This document shows positions 1-64,000 of a DNA stretch of 64,000 nt, in pieces. This DNA is from Liolophura sinensis (Eukaryota > Mollusca > Polyplacophora > Chitonida > Chitonidae). The notes beneath the pieces are model-generated. The model ran no database searches. It was not told where the DNA came from and saw only the letters and a program-made list of their open reading frames with translations. Position numbers and translations under genes: made by a program. Location: positions 48,037,187-48,101,186 of the forward strand of contig NC_088301.1 in assembly GCF_032854445.1 (NCBI RefSeq). Direction: 5' to 3'. Position 1 is the first letter of the stretch; every line of letters begins with the position of its first letter.

Positions 1-14393
<14,393 letters not shown>

Positions 14394-19575: not shown

Positions 19576-20160
19576 GGTAAACGACAGGAGGATGCTTTCC
19601 TCAGGTCAAAAAAATCGTTACAGTCTTCAAATGTGTCAGTTCACTTCGACTCAAGCAAACTCTTGGTACTGGATTGTGATGCGTCACGATACTGAATTGG
19701 GGCAATGCTCTATCACAAAATGGTGGACTGAACAGAGCAAACCATCGGCTTCATGTCGCTCACACTCTCTACAGCATAAGAAGGATATTCCCAGCTGGAG
19801 AACGAGGCCTTAGCCATCCTGTTTGGAGTAAAAAAACTTTCATCAATTTCTGTATGAGCGACATTTTACCATAATGAGTGACCACAACCCATTACTTGAA
19901 CTATTAAAAGAAACCGAGGGAATACCAGCCATGACAGCAGCACGTATGCAGCGCTGGGTATCAACTTTGTCAGCCTACGAATATGAGCTGGTCCACAAAT
20001 ATCGTAAGTCAAATGCAAACGCAGATGCTTTAATGCGTATGCTATTTCTTGATTCATCAGGCGGTGAAAATGCATCAATCCCAGGAAAGAACATTTTACT
20101 CATGGAACATCTGGACACTCATGGACCTGTAAATCCAAAACACATAAAGTCATGGACTCA
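19575..20160 (+). pseudogene. Gypsy RNase H remnant
   Basis: The segment from 19860 carries SDHNPLLELLKE and RMQRWVSTLSAYEYELVHKY, followed by KSNANADAL. This matches the C-terminal half of the RNase H domain in Ty3/Gypsy polyproteins. The preceding part is scattered over other frames. Confidence 0.75.
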
Positions 20161-20189
20161 GCGAGACCAAGTGTTGTCCAAAGTACTCA

Positions 20190-21120
20190 AATTTGTTCTC
20201 AAGAGCTGGCCAGACAAATGCTAGTAAGCAGACCTGCAACCGTTTTTTTACACGACAGACGGAACTCAGTGTACACAATGGTAGTCTTCCATGGGGAACA
20301 CGTGTCATTGTACCTCCACAAGGACGTCAGCAGGTGATACAGGAACTTTCGGTAACTCATCCACTGATTTCTCGTATGAAAAACCTTGGCAGAAGCTATG
20401 TGTGGTGGCCCAAGATGGACAATGAACTTGAAAACATAGTCCGCAGTTGTGTAGACTGTCAACTACGCCAGCCTACAACACATACTTGGGGGAAATGTTT
20501 CTCCTGGCAATAGATTCCTATACAAAGTGGCTGGAAATCTTTGCAACTAATGGATCGAGTAGTAGTTCTACCAGTGAGAAGCTACAACAGTGCTTTGCTA
20601 CCCACAGTCTACTGGATCAGATGGTATCGGATAACGGGACTAGCTTCCCAAGTCAAAATGGAATTAACCACATCTTGATTTCTCCATACCACCCAATATC
20701 GAATGGGCAAGTAGAGCGAGCTATTCAGTTCTTCAAAGGGACTATGGCCAAGACAAAAAGGTGGTTGCATTCAGGAACAAACTGAATCAGTTACTTTTTC
20801 AGTGTAGAATCACACCACAGACTACAACAGGCTTGTCACCTGCTGAAATGTTGATGAATCGACGACTCAAATCCAGACTGGACGTATTGCACCCAGATAT
20901 TTAGGGACGCACTGGCGAGAAGCAACAACATCATGACATAGCATGATTGACATGCAAAAAGTTGCACTATATTGGAAAACAACAGCGTCTGTGTTCGCAT
21001 ATTATGGCAGAGGGAAGAAATGAAAACTAGAAATTGCACAGAAAGGGAACCTTTGTCTTACCACGTTCAAACACCAGACGGACGAATCTGCCGTCGACAC
21101 CAGAAGCAGATTTGACTTCG
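20190..21120 (+). pseudogene. Gypsy integrase remnant
   Basis: The zinc-binding region is visible (THPLISRMKNLGRSYVWW then CVDCQ), followed by core-domain pieces with VSDNGTSFPSQ and a shifted SPYHPISNGQVERAIQFFK. Stops and frame changes recur through to about 21120. A short tail rich in Thr/Ser (21152-21360) precedes the minisatellite. Confidence 0.78.
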
Positions 21121-21365: not shown

Positions 21366-21840
21366 CAGTGGTCATTACTTTCTCTCTCTCAACCTCTGCT
21401 ACTAGCGGCCATTACTTCCTCTCTCTCAACCTCTGCCATGAGCGGCCATTATTTCCTCTCTCTCAACCTCTGCTACGAGCGGCCAGTACTTCCTCTCTCT
21501 CAACCTCTGCTACAAGCGGTCATTACTTCCTCTCTCTCAATACCTACTACAAACGGCCATTAATTCTCTCTCCCTCAACCTCGGCTACAATTAAACGGCC
21601 ATTATTTTTTCTCTCTCAGTCCCTGCCACAAGCGGCCATTACTTTCCGTCTCTCAACCTCTGCTACAAGCGGCCATTTATTTCTGTCTCTTAAACTCTGC
21701 TACAAATAAAGCGGTCACTAATTTCTGTCTCGAGTGACGATTACGCTCTTTCTCTTTCAATCTCTGCTTCAAGATATCATTACTCTCTCTATTTTTCTCA
21801 GTCTCTGCTACAAGCAGCCATTACTCTCTTTCTGATGAAT
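21366..21840 (+). repeat. Minisatellite, ~37-bp unit, right block
   Basis: About a dozen units like ctctctcaacctctgctaca then agcggccattacttc. It is the same family as the block at 16990-17200, so the Gypsy copy appears to sit inside one array, or the array spread from one side to the other. Confidence 0.9.
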
Positions 21841-21844
21841 TTAC

Positions 21845-22790
21845 TCTGATCATCTGTGAAACAGCCGGTGAATCCACTCTCGCCGTCTCGGTTACAGTAG
21901 ATTACTGCACTCTCGCTATCTGTTCTACCGCCGATCGGTGCACTCTCACCACCTTTGATACATGCGATTACTGCACTCTCACCACGTCTGTTACAATGGA
22001 TTACAGCACTCTCACCATGCCGGTTACAATCGATTACTGCACTCTCAGCATCTCTGTTACATCCGTTCATTGAACTCTCATCACGCCTGTTACAATCGAT
22101 CACTGCACTCTCACCACGCCTGTTACAATCGATCACTGCACTCTCACCACGCCTGTTACAATCGATCACTGCACTCTCATCACGCCTGTTACAATCGATC
22201 ACTACATTTTAGACATCCCTGTTACATCTGATCACCATACTCGCACCACGCCCGTTACAATAGATCACATCACTCTCAGCATCTCTGTTACATCCAATCA
22301 CTGCACTCTCACATCTCTGTTACATCCAATCACCGCACTCTCACCACGCCTGTTACAATCGATCATTGCACTCTCACATCTCTTTTGCATCTGATCACTG
22401 CTTTCTCACCACGCCTGTTACGATCGATCACTGCACTCTTAGCATTTCTGTTATATCCGATCACTGCACTCTCTCCAGGCCTGTTGCAATCGATCACTGC
22501 TGCACTCTCAGCACGCCTGTTACAATCGATCACCACACTCTCAAAATTTCTGTTATATCCGATCACTGCACTCTCTCCAGGCCTGTTGCAATCGATCACT
22601 ACACTCTCACCACGCCTGTTACAATCGATCACCGCACTCTCAACATTTCTGATATATCCGATCACTGCACTCTCTCCAGTTCTGTTGCAATCGATCACTG
22701 CACACTCACCACGCCTGTTACATTCGATCACCGCACTCTCAACATTTCTGTTATATCCGATCACTGCACTCCGATCACAGCACTCATTTT
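21845..22790. repeat. 33-bp satellite with higher-order repeats
   Basis: About 28 units of 33 bases (cactctcaccacgcctgtta then caatcgatcactg). Because the unit is divisible by three, frames stay open on both strands; the minus strand reads an 11-residue repeat CNRRGESAVID. In 22440-22790 three unit types alternate to give a ~99-bp higher-order period. The reading frames are a by-product of repeat length; no gene is inferred. Confidence 0.93.
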
Positions 22791-22799
22791 CATAACGTA

Positions 22800-23734
22800 T
22801 AGAATGGAGAATAGCACTTAACGATTTTATTTTAGGTGGATCTCATGGGGATACCAGATATCGTTATATCTCAGAAGAGGGAGTAAGCCAACACAAAAAT
22901 GATGACGAGGTAGCGCTGGAATGTTGATAAACACTCGGTCTGGCCTTTTTGTAATTAATCATGCAAGTCTGTCTATAAAGGTTTTGTAGTAGGATCCTCG
23001 TGCTTCTGCTATCAGCTCAGGCTAGCTTTCAGTTTCAGATTAAGTAGATTATTCCCCATCACCTTTTCCGTGCACATGCATTTCCTTGTCATTTATACAG
23101 CATACCGCCTGAAATACGAACCAATGTATCTTTTGTTATATTACGAATATTTTAGACTTCTTACTTAATGCGAGCAATAGTCAACAACTCAGGCTGCATA
23201 GACTGACATAAACGCACACTTCAGTATTTACTGACTGTGTCTCTGAATTCATAGTACCCCCAACCCTAGTACATTTTATGACATTTTAAGTGCAAGTTTC
23301 AAGACCTTATAAACACAACTCCACATACCCTTATTTAAAAAAGCCTATTTTTAGCGTACAAATAAAAATTTGAACAATGCAAACTAGAACAAAAGATTCT
23401 ACACAGCCCTGTATACATGAACAATGTCTCTTTTGATTTAGGTATATACCCATGGCAGGAAAACGTTGTAGCACTACCCTGCCAGAGAGCAGGATATGAA
23501 CGGTATACGGAAACATAGGTTCAAATATAGGTGAGACCATATTGTGTACTTTCAGTGAGCCAGGGTAACATAGAAGAGAGTGCACTGGCCCGACCTTCTC
23601 AGCTGGTTAAGCCAAGCAGGATATGTTTGCACCGCGTGGCTTGTGGAGCGAGTATACAGTACGCGCCTGGGACGGGGCAGTGTACATACGGATGAACAGC
23701 TGTTGAGCTAAAGCGTCAGGTTATACGTAGGCAT
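22800..23734. other. Non-coding flank upstream of the + strand SLC26 gene
   Basis: No supported exon or repeat was recognised here. The 5' UTR, any non-coding first exon and the promoter of the SLC26-like gene starting at 23735 probably lie in this stretch, but I see no decisive core-promoter motif. Confidence 0.4.
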
Positions 23735-58560: not shown

Positions 58561-59490
58561 GCGATAAAGGAAAAGACCATACTGGACCAAATGTATGTAT
58601 GCACTGATAATGTACTCCACAAGAAGTTTAAAAAGCATAAATTTAGTTTACTTTTGTGACATTGTACAACAGAGATATATCAGTTTAAAGTATGCAAAAT
58701 AGCGAACATTGAGACAACTAGAAGCGCCAACTGAAATTGGTCCTATAATCACTGACCCGAAATATTCATGTATGAATGGATGATGATTAACATACGAATA
58801 TCAGTTTCGACACCTAGATACAAGAGAATCAGTATGTAGTGTGGTCTGCAAGATATGTTATTCAAGAGCACATCACAGAGCTCTTTGATATTCAAAAATT
58901 ATCTTTGTTATCAAACTTAACTGACAGTCGATTCAATAAATCCAATATAAATTTAATTTTTGGCTTAAATCTCATAATGGATGTTCCAGGTTAATAAACG
59001 TAATATCAATTTCCAAAACAACCTTCACACAAACTATCACAGAATTAAGAAACAAGTACATTAGACGTAATACCAATTTCCAAAACAACATTCACACAAA
59101 CTATCACAGAAATAAGAAACAAGTGCATTAGAAATTAAGCAGTTTTAACAAATCAGGTGCGGGTTATTATTACATCCCGAGGACGCAGCTGTTTCCGCTT
59201 ACGTCACCCGAACACTGGTTTGCGTCTTAACTAAATGTACGTGGGAGACAAGTGAGGCGACATCGTGTTTCCGGTTGCTCTGATATGGAGCTTCTCACAG
59301 CCTCGAAAGAATTCCTGATAAACAGGTGATTTATAGTTATCAAGCACATAAGAACAAAAGGTTGTGGTCATTTAGGTCCCTTTTCCTTAATAACTACGGT
59401 TATATTATTTGTTGTCTTTTCGGCCAATTATACAGTTACCAAGCACATCATGAAAAATTTTTGATGGCTGTTTAGGACTGTTTTCATCTC
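58560..59490 (+). repeat. Dispersed repeat cluster, including copy 1 of a ~340-bp repeat
   Basis: Bases 58733-59139 match 60956-61295 at high identity over about 340 bases; this copy carries an extra ~66-bp tandem unit (ttccaaaacaacattcacac type). Flanking blocks at 58568 and 59324 resemble the ITIH intron repeat at 3900-4140. Confidence 0.85.
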
Positions 59491-60955: not shown

Positions 60956-61295
60956 GAAATTGGTCTTATAATCATTGACCCGAAATATTCATGTATGCAT
61001 GGATGATGATTGGTATACGAATATCAGTTTCGACACCTAGATACAAGAGAATCAGTATGTAGTGTGGTCTGCTAGATATGTTATTCAAGAGCACATCACC
61101 GAGCTCTTTGATATTCAAAAATTATCTTTGTTATTAAACATAACTGACAGTCGATTCAATAAATCCAATATAAATTTAATTTTTGGCTTAAATCTCATAA
61201 TGGATGTTCCAGGTTAACAAACGTAATATCAATTTCCAAAACAACCTTCACACAAACTATCGCAGAATTAAGAAACAAGTGCATTAGAAATTAAG
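60956..61295 (+). repeat. ~340-bp repeat, copy 2, ending at the GC-rich junction
   Basis: Nearly identical to 58733-59139 minus one 66-bp unit. Similarity stops exactly after gcattagaaattaag: copy 1 continues cagttttaac, this copy continues acggagtcat, where GC-rich sequence begins. Confidence 0.92.
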
Positions 61296-61451
61296 ACGGA
61301 GTCATGTTGCAGCAGGGGGTGCCAGCATACCACTCGGTGAGGCCGTTGAAGCTCCAATCGGTATTTCCGGGGCATGTTTATAGGTAATCAACCCCACAAA
61401 AACAGGTCTGGTGGGCTAAAAAACAACGCATCTCGCCTGTCCAAAACTAGA

Positions 61452-61482
61452 CCGCCAGAGGGGCGCCACCCCCTTTGGGCGG
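61452..61482 (+). other. GC-rich imperfect hairpin in the element's left end
   Basis: The arms CCGCCAGAGGGG and CCCCCTTTGGGCGG can pair imperfectly around a CGCCA loop. It lies about 90 bases before the first ORF. It might be a terminal or regulatory structure; function is unknown. Confidence 0.5.
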
Positions 61483-61520
61483 CCCCCTAGCCAAGGCGTA
61501 CACGTTTGTTTACCTTTTAG

Positions 61521-61534
61521 ACATACCCATCCGC
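61521..61534 (+). promoter_or_regulatory. 14-nt repeat upstream of the first element ORF
   Basis: ACATACCCATCCGC lies 36 bases before the ATG at 61571 and recurs exactly at 61854-61867, before the second ORF. A CGTTTGTT block is also near both. Its placement suggests an element-specific promoter or processing signal. Confidence 0.45.
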
Positions 61535-61570
61535 AGTAGTATACGAAGTGATAAGCAGCCCGTATACGCG

Positions 61571-61843
61571 ATGACTCGAGGAACAAACACATGCGCCTGG
61601 CTCATGATTGGCACAACCGACCTCTGCGGTCGCTCCTGCCTAGGCACGCACTGTAAAATCCACCTGTTTCGCCTCCGAAAGGGGCCGCCACTCCAACTGT
61701 GTAGCAAGTGCGGGAAGGGTGTTAAAAACGCTTTCTGTCTCTGCCAAGCTTGTGGGTATGACAACGCAATAACCAACAACTGGAAGCGAAAGAAGGCAGC
61801 GTTCGAGAAGAAGTTTAAACGTTTGGCTAGGATTGACCCCTAA
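61571..61843 (+). CDS. Small Cys-rich zinc-ribbon protein of the GC-rich element (90 aa)
   Basis: Intact ORF of 90 codons plus TAA; an in-frame ATG at 61475 would extend it to 122 residues, but the downstream ATG places the whole Cys-rich core near the start and follows the 14-nt repeat. Two metal-binding-like clusters are visible: C8-x10-C19-x3-C23-x4-C28-x2-H31 (CGRSCLGTHCKIH) and a zinc ribbon C44-x2-C47-G ... C58-x2-C61-G. The C-terminus is basic (WKRKKAAFEKKFKRL). This suggests a small nucleic-acid-binding or regulatory protein. I do not recognise a named family. It is the only undamaged ORF seen in the element, lying 88 bases before the long frame. Confidence 0.6.
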   Translation: MTRGTNTCAWLMIGTTDLCGRSCLGTHCKIHLFRLRKGPPLQLCSKCGKGVKNAFCLCQACGYDNAITNNWKRKKAAFEKKFKRLARIDP

Positions 61844-61853
61844 CCCCCGTTGT

Positions 61854-61867
61854 ACATACCCATCCGC
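61854..61867 (+). promoter_or_regulatory. 14-nt repeat upstream of the second element ORF
   Basis: Exact second copy of ACATACCCATCCGC, 64 bases before the ATG at 61932, followed by CGTTTGTTAATACC. See the copy at 61521. Confidence 0.45.
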
Positions 61868-61931
61868 CGAGACGACCATTTTGAGAAATGAAACGTTTGT
61901 TAATACCCAATCGAATTGACTGATATCGGTA

Positions 61932-64000
61932 ATGACGCACGCGGAAAAAGCATCAGCATTACGCCATGCGTACCAAATCGCCACTGGCAGATGGCCAGCC
62001 TACCCCCGCTCCCGTGTGGCCCTAGAGGCCCTTCGGGAGACCCTCGACCGCTACAAATCGGCCTCCAAGGCCCAATCGGCCAATGAGACCAAGCGCCGAG
62101 ATGCTAAGGATTTCGCTGCCGATGCCAAGCGCCTTGGGGCAGTCGATATTGCCCTCGGCTTCGATCTCGAGCCGGAGCCGGCAAAGCTCGTGGGGCGCGC
62201 CAAACAGCAGCACGCCCGGGAAAGCGCTGCCCACGTCTTCACTTCCTGACGGAAGGAGACCCCTGACCCTCATGACCTCGGCGACGTGGTCGTCAATGAC
62301 CGCATCCGTGTCGTCGCTGGCAACATGGAACAAGACAACACGATCGACACCGCCCGTTCAGCAGACATCCTGGGAAGCCTAGAAGGCGAATACCTCATCA
62401 AGATCAAGCTGATAAAGGAACAGGAAGAAGGCGTCTTTGTGGTCGAGGATGCTTTCCAACCCCTCCGGGAGGGTAGAACACGAGGAAAAGCTGTAATCGA
62501 GATTACGGCCCAAACGGGGGCCACTCTCCACGACCTTGCACGGCTCGAGACAGCCACACGGCGCGCCATTATCGTCCGCGACATCGCTGGCGAGACCCTC
62601 CACTCGAGTGGCAAGTATGGAGCCAGCAAGTGGAAACCGATCGAAATCACACTCGATAACGGCCACGCCTGGTGACCAGAGCTGGCATTCCCCCAAGCCC
62701 GAGAAGTCCGGACCTACGCCGGCGACGTCTGGGAGGCGATCCGAAAAGAGGTCGCCGACGAACCGATGGCTGTCTGGTTGCTGGGGGGCAGCGAAGGACG
62801 GAAGCTCACTGTCAACCAGTTCGTCCTCGCCGACGGGCGCACCTACCGGACCAGCCTCGTGCACGAGACCTTGATCGCCGCCTGTCGCCACCTATCTCCC
62901 GAGGACCCCGAGGCACTGGCCAGCAAGGTCTTTGGCGAGAATCACGCCGCGAGCCTGGTAGCAAGGAGGAAGAACGACTGGCGACCCACGCCAGCCAACC
63001 TCTTGGACGAGGTCCAGGCGGCCTGCGTCGAGCATGGCCACGGCCGCCTGTGGAACTCCCCGGGCTACCACACACAGAACGTAGTTAGCATCGATATAAA
63101 AGCCTATTACCCTGCCTCCTTCCAGGGCCACGGCGAGGCCGCACCCTGGTTCAGGCGCTGCCCGTCGACACTGGCACAGGCTTCGCCTGCGCACGCTCGT
63201 GGGAGTTCGCGCCCGACTGCCACCCGGTCATACCTGCGTGGTTTGGGGCAAAAGGCTGGGTTCCCACTGCACTCCTAGCCTATCTCACTGACAGGCCTCC
63301 TAACTCACCTCAAGGTCACAGAGGGGCTCGTTGCTCCCAGGCCCCAGCACAATGTCTGGCTCCCTGACAGCCGAGACCAGGCATGTTCTGTCATCGGCAA
63401 GTTTACCCAGGGCTCCAAGGCCGATGGCAAGCGGATGACGCGGCGTCTGATCACGGACCAGGGCGAACTGGACTTCCCAGTAGATGACTGCCGCAAAAGC
63501 GGCTCCCTAGTAGATGTGCCCGAACAGTGCCCTCTGGGGTGGGTCTTCACCTACTACGATGGGGCCCAACCGCAGTACACCCACCTGCGGGCGAGCATGC
63601 TAGCATCCGCCCACATCAATCTATTGGCGATGCTCCGCCTTACCCGTCCGGACCTAGCCAAGCTCGACGGCGTCGAGAACTTCGTCGCTCTCCGGCATTG
63701 TAACTGCGGTAGACAATTATGTGTCCATTGTCTGATGGGGTTGGCCTGGATGCCCCCCGTGGTCCCGGGCCAGTGGAGAGATAAGGGCGAGACGATCTTT
63801 GCGCCCCAGGCCCACGCCGCCTACCAAGCGAAAGCCGACGCATGGGGGTACTGTCACCTGCTCCCCGACAGCATGGCGCCCAGCCACACGGATCCGCTAA
63901 CGCGCCACGCCCTCAGCTATCTCAACGGGGGTGGTGGCTCGGGAAAGACGACACGAGAAATCGAGCTCTTTCGCGCCCGCGGCTCCCTGGTGGTGTTCAC
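61932..64000 (+). pseudogene. Degenerate family-B DNA-polymerase-like / P-loop helicase-like fusion (3' partial)
   Basis: One frame starts at ATG 61932 and continues through two in-frame TGA codons (62247, 62673) to a polymerase-like motif A, VSIDIKAYYPAS, whose Asp codon is 63093-63095. Coding similarity then moves to a second frame (about 63155-63290) and back (about 63291 to the end), so at least two indels are present. LRASMLASAHINLL (from 63585) sits where polymerase motif B is expected. No DTD-type motif C occurs in any frame afterwards. A Cys cluster (HCNCGRQLCVHC, about 63694) precedes a Walker A, GGGGSGKTT, at 63927-63953, followed by IELFRARGSLVVFT at the window edge, as in superfamily-1-like helicases. 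The order polymerase then helicase in one protein suggests a self-replicating element. The copy is inactive as read. Homology to family B is by motif only. Confidence 0.5.

Follow-up and report, generated by a model that had tools for sequence, protein, structure and literature searches.

A GC-rich block at the right end of a 64,000-nucleotide stretch of the genome of the chiton Liolophura sinensis (contig NC_088301.1, here C7, positions C7:48037187-48101186; hereafter the window) is, with a probability that we put at about 0.83, the left end of a decayed Tlr1-type Polinton-like element. Such an element would be an integrated, virus-like double-stranded DNA bounded by inverted repeats and carrying genes for an rve integrase, a packaging ATPase, and a capsid-like protein, besides a replicase in which a protein-primed family-B polymerase (pPolB) is fused to a superfamily 1 (SF1) helicase (pPolB-S1H) and carries a C-terminal HNH nuclease. 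Direct support came from the borders, the inverted repeats, the short target duplications, the gene order, the copy number, the matches to helicase, integrase, ATPase, and HNH families, and the purifying selection seen when two subfamilies of copies were compared. An original prediction, made from the letters of the window, had described a compact GC-rich block encoding polymerase-like and helicase parts in one chain, possibly a mobile or virus-like lineage within an animal genome. GC content is indeed 59.6% over the window's final ~2.7 kb, compared with 38.2% in the remainder (the window is free of N), and the same order of parts was found uninterrupted in other copies. The block makes up the left fifth of an element of ~13.8 kb.

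The extent of this element, from window position 61309 to C7:48112317, was set by its inverted repeats. The left terminal inverted repeat (61309-61523, plus strand) is 89.3% identical over 224 nt, in inverted orientation, to a right arm lying beyond the window in the same genome (C7:48112094-48112317; L041:4908-5131). The left copy of a target-site duplication, CATGT, was read by eye at 61303-61307 (TCATGT from 61302 when an ambiguous end base is counted), and the right copy, also read by eye, directly follows the right inverted repeat. The abrupt change in GC content marks the left border of the element. Because the inverted repeats and target-site duplications place that border at ~61309, the start at 61296 given by the original prediction was corrected; 61295/61296 was rejected as the border, being merely the point at which a host repeat pair diverges. 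The two members of that pair (58733-59139 and 60956-61295) match at 96% identity across 333 nt; the one on the right stops 13 bp short of the element, and the left one contains an internal 67-bp duplication.

Terminal inverted repeats were also found in four copies elsewhere in the genome (C8, C2a, C2b, and C12a), and the element ends read, with small variations, 5'-AGCAGCAGGG...CTGCTGCT-3'. The target duplications, again determined by eye, were AATGTG in C2b (6 bp, exact), AGTTT in C2a (5 bp), CATGT in the window copy, and GGTGG in C12a (the last two 5 bp, or 6 bp with an ambiguous end base); one end each of C8 and C11 was not readable. The target-site duplication of Polintons/Mavericks is 6 bp. 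In the first of the two subfamilies, the inverted repeats (for example L023:4178-4400 and L029:4117-4403) apparently contain short tandem units of ~50-60 bp, the number of which varies by copy. No unusual fold was found in the left 225 bases (z 0.32).

When the sequence was extended to the right, as the original prediction had proposed, the second inverted-repeat arm was found together with remnants of integrase, ATPase, and capsid-like genes. The rve integrase remnant lies 1.5-2.0 kb past the window edge (L022:1503-2000). The original prediction had distinguished the block from Polintons, which encode an integrase; given this remnant, it belongs to a Polinton/Tlr-type element and is not an integrase-less novelty. 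In copy C8, the plus-strand replicase is followed on the minus strand by an rve integrase of 171 aa (PF00665, 3.4e-11; L024), open reading frames (ORFs) of 149, 156, and 202 aa, an A32 ATPase of 213 aa (Pox_A32, PF04665, 1.9e-9; terminase family phrog_2666, 5.1e-12), and a capsid-like ORF of 323 aa (L024:4250-5218), and thereafter by overlapping ORFs on both strands, a minus-strand ORF of 430 aa, and plus-strand ORFs of 193, 272, and 234 aa. All 12 of the C8 neighbour ORFs queried were matched in the right flank of the window copy (L022, L041), at identities of 79% for the integrase, 73-89% for the 149-aa ORF (o149), 75-76% for the 323-aa ORF, 58-64% for the ATPase, and 62% for the 430-aa ORF (o430). 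Not all 12 can be genes, since two of them, o242 and o180, cover partly the same DNA on opposite strands. In the flank of the window copy, the remnants of the integrase, the A32-type ATPase, and the capsid-like gene stand in the order of sister copies of ~16 kb, the length of the first-subfamily copy C2b. The ratio of nonsynonymous to synonymous substitution (dN/dS) between the window copy and C8 was 0.09-0.33 in 10 of 12 regions and 0.17 in the palm-like part of the replicase, with synonymous sites saturated in the helicase and integrase and nearly so in the palm (proportion of synonymous differences, pS, 0.72) and HNH (pS 0.70) parts. From these low ratios, most of the element's genes were under purifying selection prior to the decay of the window copy.

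In the window copy, the plus-strand replicase gene is interrupted by three in-frame stops (TGA 62247, TGA 62673, and TAG 63276) and by an off-frame segment. Its N-terminal part occupies two pieces of the same frame, 61920-62249 (first in-frame ATG at 61932) and 62250-62675, each terminated by an in-frame TGA. The next piece, 62676-63128, carries motif A (VSIDIKAYYPAS, 63084-63119) and is followed by a broken segment (63129-63290, approximate borders) between motif A and motif B, where the coding signal is off the main frame. The last piece, 63279-64000, runs from motif B to the P-loop and continues past the window. A one-piece replicase is therefore not encoded by the window copy. Strong codon-position GC periodicity was seen in the replicase frame from ~61950 onward (the training set for the codon score excluded ~63129-63290 and took in the remaining frame). 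The motif strings named in the original prediction were located, in one direction and with no stop from motif B to the P-loop, the frame 63279-63998 being open. Within it lie DQACSVIGKF (63375-63404), a helix-like stretch LRASMLASAHINLL (63585-63626), a decayed motif C (DGVENFVAL, 63666-63692), a Cys cluster (CNCGRQLCVHC, 63699-63731), and the helicase P-loop (GGGGSGKTT, 63927-63953). The string RASMLASAHINLL, which is contained in the helix-like stretch, had been read as motif B; by the pattern of PolB motifs, we take DQACSVIGKF to be motif B and RASMLASAHINLL to be, more likely, a palm helix ahead of motif C, and a profile alignment sets the DQACSVIGKF motif on NSLYGKF of phage pPolBs. Among 1000 Markov shuffles of the block that kept its dinucleotide make-up, a motif A match appeared in any of six frames in 8, a strict P-loop in none, motif A followed by Walker A in one frame in 1, and a loose Walker A by itself in 139. 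The motif combination in the window frame is unlikely to have arisen by chance.

The chiton's own genome (609 Mb, 632 contigs) was searched with window piece 63279-63998. This yielded 56 matches (51 candidates, all scored), the nearest 86% identical; when matches less than 2 kb apart were merged by eye, they represented 34 places spread over many contigs. Several copies lie in long open frames, with a maximum of 1309 aa. In one of them, L018, a single open frame contains PolB motifs A (DMKACYP, 414), B (CAVIGKF, 532), and C (ATDSIYI, 627) in order and N-terminal to the helicase, followed by the Cys cluster (653), the P-loop (729), and WDEV (799; residues of the available part). The P-loop is thus not part of an unrelated downstream gene. 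The helicase part matched AAA_30 (1.7e-14) and AAA_19 (3.7e-11) in Pfam and a Dda-like helicase family in PHROGs (8.4e-15), and weakly matched RecD and Pif1 in PDB (E 0.0016-0.0073); an SF1 helicase is hence in one chain with the palm-like part. At the C-terminus, endonuclease VII (1e-12, PHROGs) and HNH (2.2e-4, just above the Pfam cut-off) were matched, and at the N-terminus of the C8 frame, Rho_N (2.2e-6).

First-subfamily copies are 96.6-99.9% identical to L032 (L034 99.9, L016 98.4, L018 98.5, L019 97.5-98.8, and L036 96.6%). The second subfamily comprises the window copy and C2a (L015, L028), with a mutual identity of about 86-90% in long matches, and is about 65-77% identical to the first. 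Two copies 52 kb apart, C12b and C12c (left flanks L031 and L033), are 99.9% identical and lie next to matching host sequence (98% over 6 kb); they look like a single insertion copied by segmental duplication, or an assembly duplication, and because the host flank is common to both they were counted as one insertion. Copies with uninterrupted frames, of the kind that the original prediction had proposed to seek, are present in the own genome; none was found in the viral or prokaryote contigs scanned. No relative was recovered from viral contigs (8 of 8 scans) or prokaryote genome contigs (2 of 2 scans), these scans detecting close relatives or exact patterns only, and tblastn against phages and plasmids gave matches only at E 2 to 10. 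Three loci from one viral-contig scan were rejected, as their proteins were unrelated by eye.

The palm-like part is likely, though not proven, to be a family-B polymerase, judging from its motifs and the architecture of the protein and with no significant profile match. In L018 the spacing of the motifs (A-B 118, B-C 95) is near, yet just beyond, that of phage pPolBs (A-B 124-140, B-C 67-89 in 8 of 9; the ninth missed the search patterns). In a profile-profile comparison with nine phage pPolBs, the palm alignment crossed motifs B and C, setting NSLYGKF on CAVIGKF and DTDS on ATDS. The profile drew on nine of ten polymerases chosen by hand, the sources being 126 matching records together with phi29 and PRD1; L011 was omitted for its split gene.

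Several results speak against a polymerase, and some against a virus-like element. Of the single-protein matches that the original prediction had named as support for both parts, those to an SF1 helicase were obtained, but a significant match to a polymerase came from none of the profile searches, which counts in part against that prediction. The palm (L018:901-2130) matched no Pfam family at E<=1, and it gave only chance matches in PHROGs (0.08) and PDB (one, 0.69). The comparison with phage pPolBs was weak (P=0.049; N-terminal region P=0.16, helicase P=0.49), and that with the canonical pPolB of the same genome gave P=0.83 with a misplaced alignment. Ahead of the palm, Pfam detected no TP or vOTU domain; as for an exonuclease, no significant Pfam or PHROG match of any kind was found there, an absent match being weak evidence. 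Family searches with the window pieces gave no significant match. Against the phage pPolB profile, shuffles reached the scores of two window pieces in 39/150 and 12/150 cases, and one reversed piece nearly reached the score; the best positions of the pieces were motif A and the pre-C helix, as was likewise so for 5/150 shuffles each. Single-sequence structure predictions of two pieces were uninformative (predicted local distance difference test, pLDDT, 33.0 and 39.5). As for the structural module, the 323-aa ORF matched Capsid_N at E=0.016, under the cut-off, and nothing beyond chance in PDB, while Pfam identified no adenain-like cysteine protease, or other protease, among 8 L024 ORFs (E<=0.1) and 10 L037/L023 ORFs (E<=0.5), some of them outside the element. 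Because the palm went unrecognised, its profile score was weak, and its motif spacing was just out of range, its identity as a polymerase is only likely.

These results bear on three other explanations. A palm that is no longer a polymerase, in a protein acting only as an SF1 helicase-nuclease while the host, or the canonical pPolB of the abundant relatives, does the copying, is an unlikely possibility. It would fit motif C, in which DTD occurred in 0/21 rows, the first Asp being missing in 21/21, and ATDS in 14/21 (rows with fewer than three gaps at the motif, L018 included and the window row excluded by the gap filter); the family's first publication, to go by its title, concerns an inactivated polymerase (Krupovic 2016), and canonical relatives with DTDS are abundant in the same genome. 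However, 18/22 rows retain the Asp of motif A and 17/22 the GKF of motif B (the window place entered twice in both lists), the palm dN/dS is 0.17, at near-saturated synonymous sites, and other active PolBs are argued to lack the same motif C Asp (PMC11071308). An element without working capsid genes, that is, a non-viral transposon or a plasmid-like (transpoviron-like) element with a polymerase-helicase fusion, would agree with the window itself, where only the replicase and a Cys-rich gene are found, with the weak recognition of the capsid-like gene, and with transpovirons, which are described as carrying pPolB-S1H without a structural module (PMC11071308). We nevertheless consider it improbable, given that the window copy and C8 have the A32-type ATPase, the capsid-like gene, and the rve integrase in a common order with dN/dS well below 1 where measurable. 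The sharp GC shift at the border could suggest contaminating or misassembled microbial DNA joined to an animal contig. This is very hard to credit: the 34 places on many contigs refute contamination in the main, the borders that were read show different flanks, inverted repeats, and short target duplications in four copies, and neither of the two prokaryote genome scans yielded a relative.

If the block belongs to a Tlr1-type Polinton-like element, as we favour, the palm-like part would, by analogy with pPolB elements, serve as a protein-primed polymerase copying the linear element from its inverted repeats. The fused SF1 helicase would take over strand opening, the rve integrase would insert the copy, and the A32 ATPase might package it into a capsid.

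The same genome also contains an alternative replicase. A 1348-aa frame in L049 has a distant Cys-rich protein (53% identical to that of the window) at its N-terminal end, contains DTDS, and matched Endonuclease_7 (3.7e-6) and, in two pieces, DNA_pol_B_2 (8.3e-4 and 6e-5, both under the Pfam cut-off); in L053 both families were matched as well, at weaker values (0.0019 and 0.005). The L049 pPolB piece gave at least 99 matches at at least 90 places (90 of 596 candidates scored), and canonical-pPolB relatives thus outnumber the fusion type in this genome (at least 90 versus 34 places). Moreover, the integrase and o149 adjoining L049 are 81% and 79-86% identical, respectively, to those of the fusion-type element C8. 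Because the canonical L049 carries the same integrase (checked at L049 only), the replication module has apparently been exchanged.

The Cys-rich (zinc-finger-like) protein of the window, 90 aa and uninterrupted (61571-61843, plus strand), had at least 150 matches in the genome (150 of 331 candidates scored). Among the 150 scored, 8, including the window, were at least 86% identical and the others at most 59%; a fusion-type replicase match was found within ~2 kb of all 8 close ones. Ten pairs picked by eye from the Cys-protein (at least 150) and pPolB (at least 99) match lists place a Cys protein within ~3 kb of a canonical pPolB. In the fusion-type copy C8, a Cys protein (49%) is at the far right end. 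We lean towards a single Polinton-like lineage whose replication module takes either of two forms, pPolB with an exonuclease (at least 90 places) or pPolB-S1H-HNH (34 places), and in which the fusion form has spread recently, as copies 96.6-99.9% identical would indicate. The Cys-rich protein may be a shared adaptor making the modules interchangeable, since in L049 it forms part of the canonical replicase frame and in the fusion form it has a gene of its own.

The original prediction had spoken of a possible little-described lineage. No report of pPolB-S1H elements in animals was found in the open-access literature, a scope outside which the 2016 founding description falls; the fusion itself is a described architecture (PMC11071308; PMC12721341). 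In the literature covered, pPolB-S1H replicases are treated for Polinton-like viruses (PLVs), Tlr1, and transpovirons, and the type is known chiefly from single-celled hosts. The surprising points here are that the host is an animal, that the copies are many, and that replicases have apparently been exchanged, rather than the fusion. Compared by description, the chiton element resembles Tlr1 of Tetrahymena and PLVs with pPolB-S1H in its palm-like part, SF1 helicase, and C-terminal homing-type nuclease, which is HNH in the chiton and GIY-YIG in Tlr1; published pPolB-S1H proteins have a C-terminal GIY-YIG or HNH in some cases. The first Asp of motif C is also missing in Tlr1-like helicases (PMC11071308), and the rve integrase, packaging ATPase, and capsid-like gene are further common points; Tlr elements are reported to have an SF1 helicase, and an integrase and ATPase common to Polintons (PMC4028283). 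Unlike that type, the chiton element is in an animal rather than a protist, has a Cys-rich gene that either adjoins the replicase or stands at the opposite end, and showed neither TP nor vOTU domains in Pfam. With animal Polintons/Mavericks (adintoviruses) it shares the rve integrase, the ATPase of A32 type, the capsid-like gene, the inverted repeats, and target duplications of 5-6 bp, and a relative with canonical pPolB is present in the same genome, but a helicase fusion replaces the exonuclease-bearing pPolB. In one survey, metazoan capsid genes, Cnidaria excepted, are placed within the Maverick-Polinton group (PMC10120064). The replicase is like that of transpovirons, whereas the integrase, ATPase, and capsid-like genes and the chromosomal location are not. 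An endogenous PLV of Oxyrrhis marina likewise has helicase and pPolB in one chain (PMC12721341), but with the helicase at the N-terminus and the exonuclease retained; in the chiton element, as in Tlr1, the palm precedes the helicase. HelPol polymerases were set aside, being described as a PolB relative and with no helicase fusion (PMC11071296). Many fusion copies beside ordinary-polymerase relatives offer a natural comparison for asking whether a palm with an incomplete motif C copies DNA, and the same comparison bears on how virus-like elements exchange replication modules.

Both genes of the window copy are preceded by an exact 14-nt word, ACATACCCATCCGC (repeat family D13, plus strand), at 61521-61534 ahead of the Cys-rich ORF and at 61854-61867 ahead of the replicase frame; it may be a shared promoter-like signal. 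No RNA families were found at gathering scores. Elsewhere in the genome, L052 (C12:13456000-13464000) is a shortened element with two kinds of Cys-rich protein (93% and 51% identical to the window's) that retains the integrase, o149, o202, and a partial palm; it is a deletion derivative or a recombinant. L050 (C8:26893500-26900500) has a tandem pair of Cys-rich proteins in one 251-aa frame. In the remainder of the window, exons of an inter-alpha-trypsin-inhibitor heavy chain (VWA; ITI_HC_C 9.2e-25) lie at 5783-12327 on the plus strand, and the remnant of a Ty3-like retrotransposon, in which RNase H and the zinc-binding domain of an integrase are recognisable, at 19832-20513, also on the plus strand; this content fits an animal host. 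A minisatellite-like stretch at 21738-22842 is open in several frames on both strands and lies in a region of strong GC skew.

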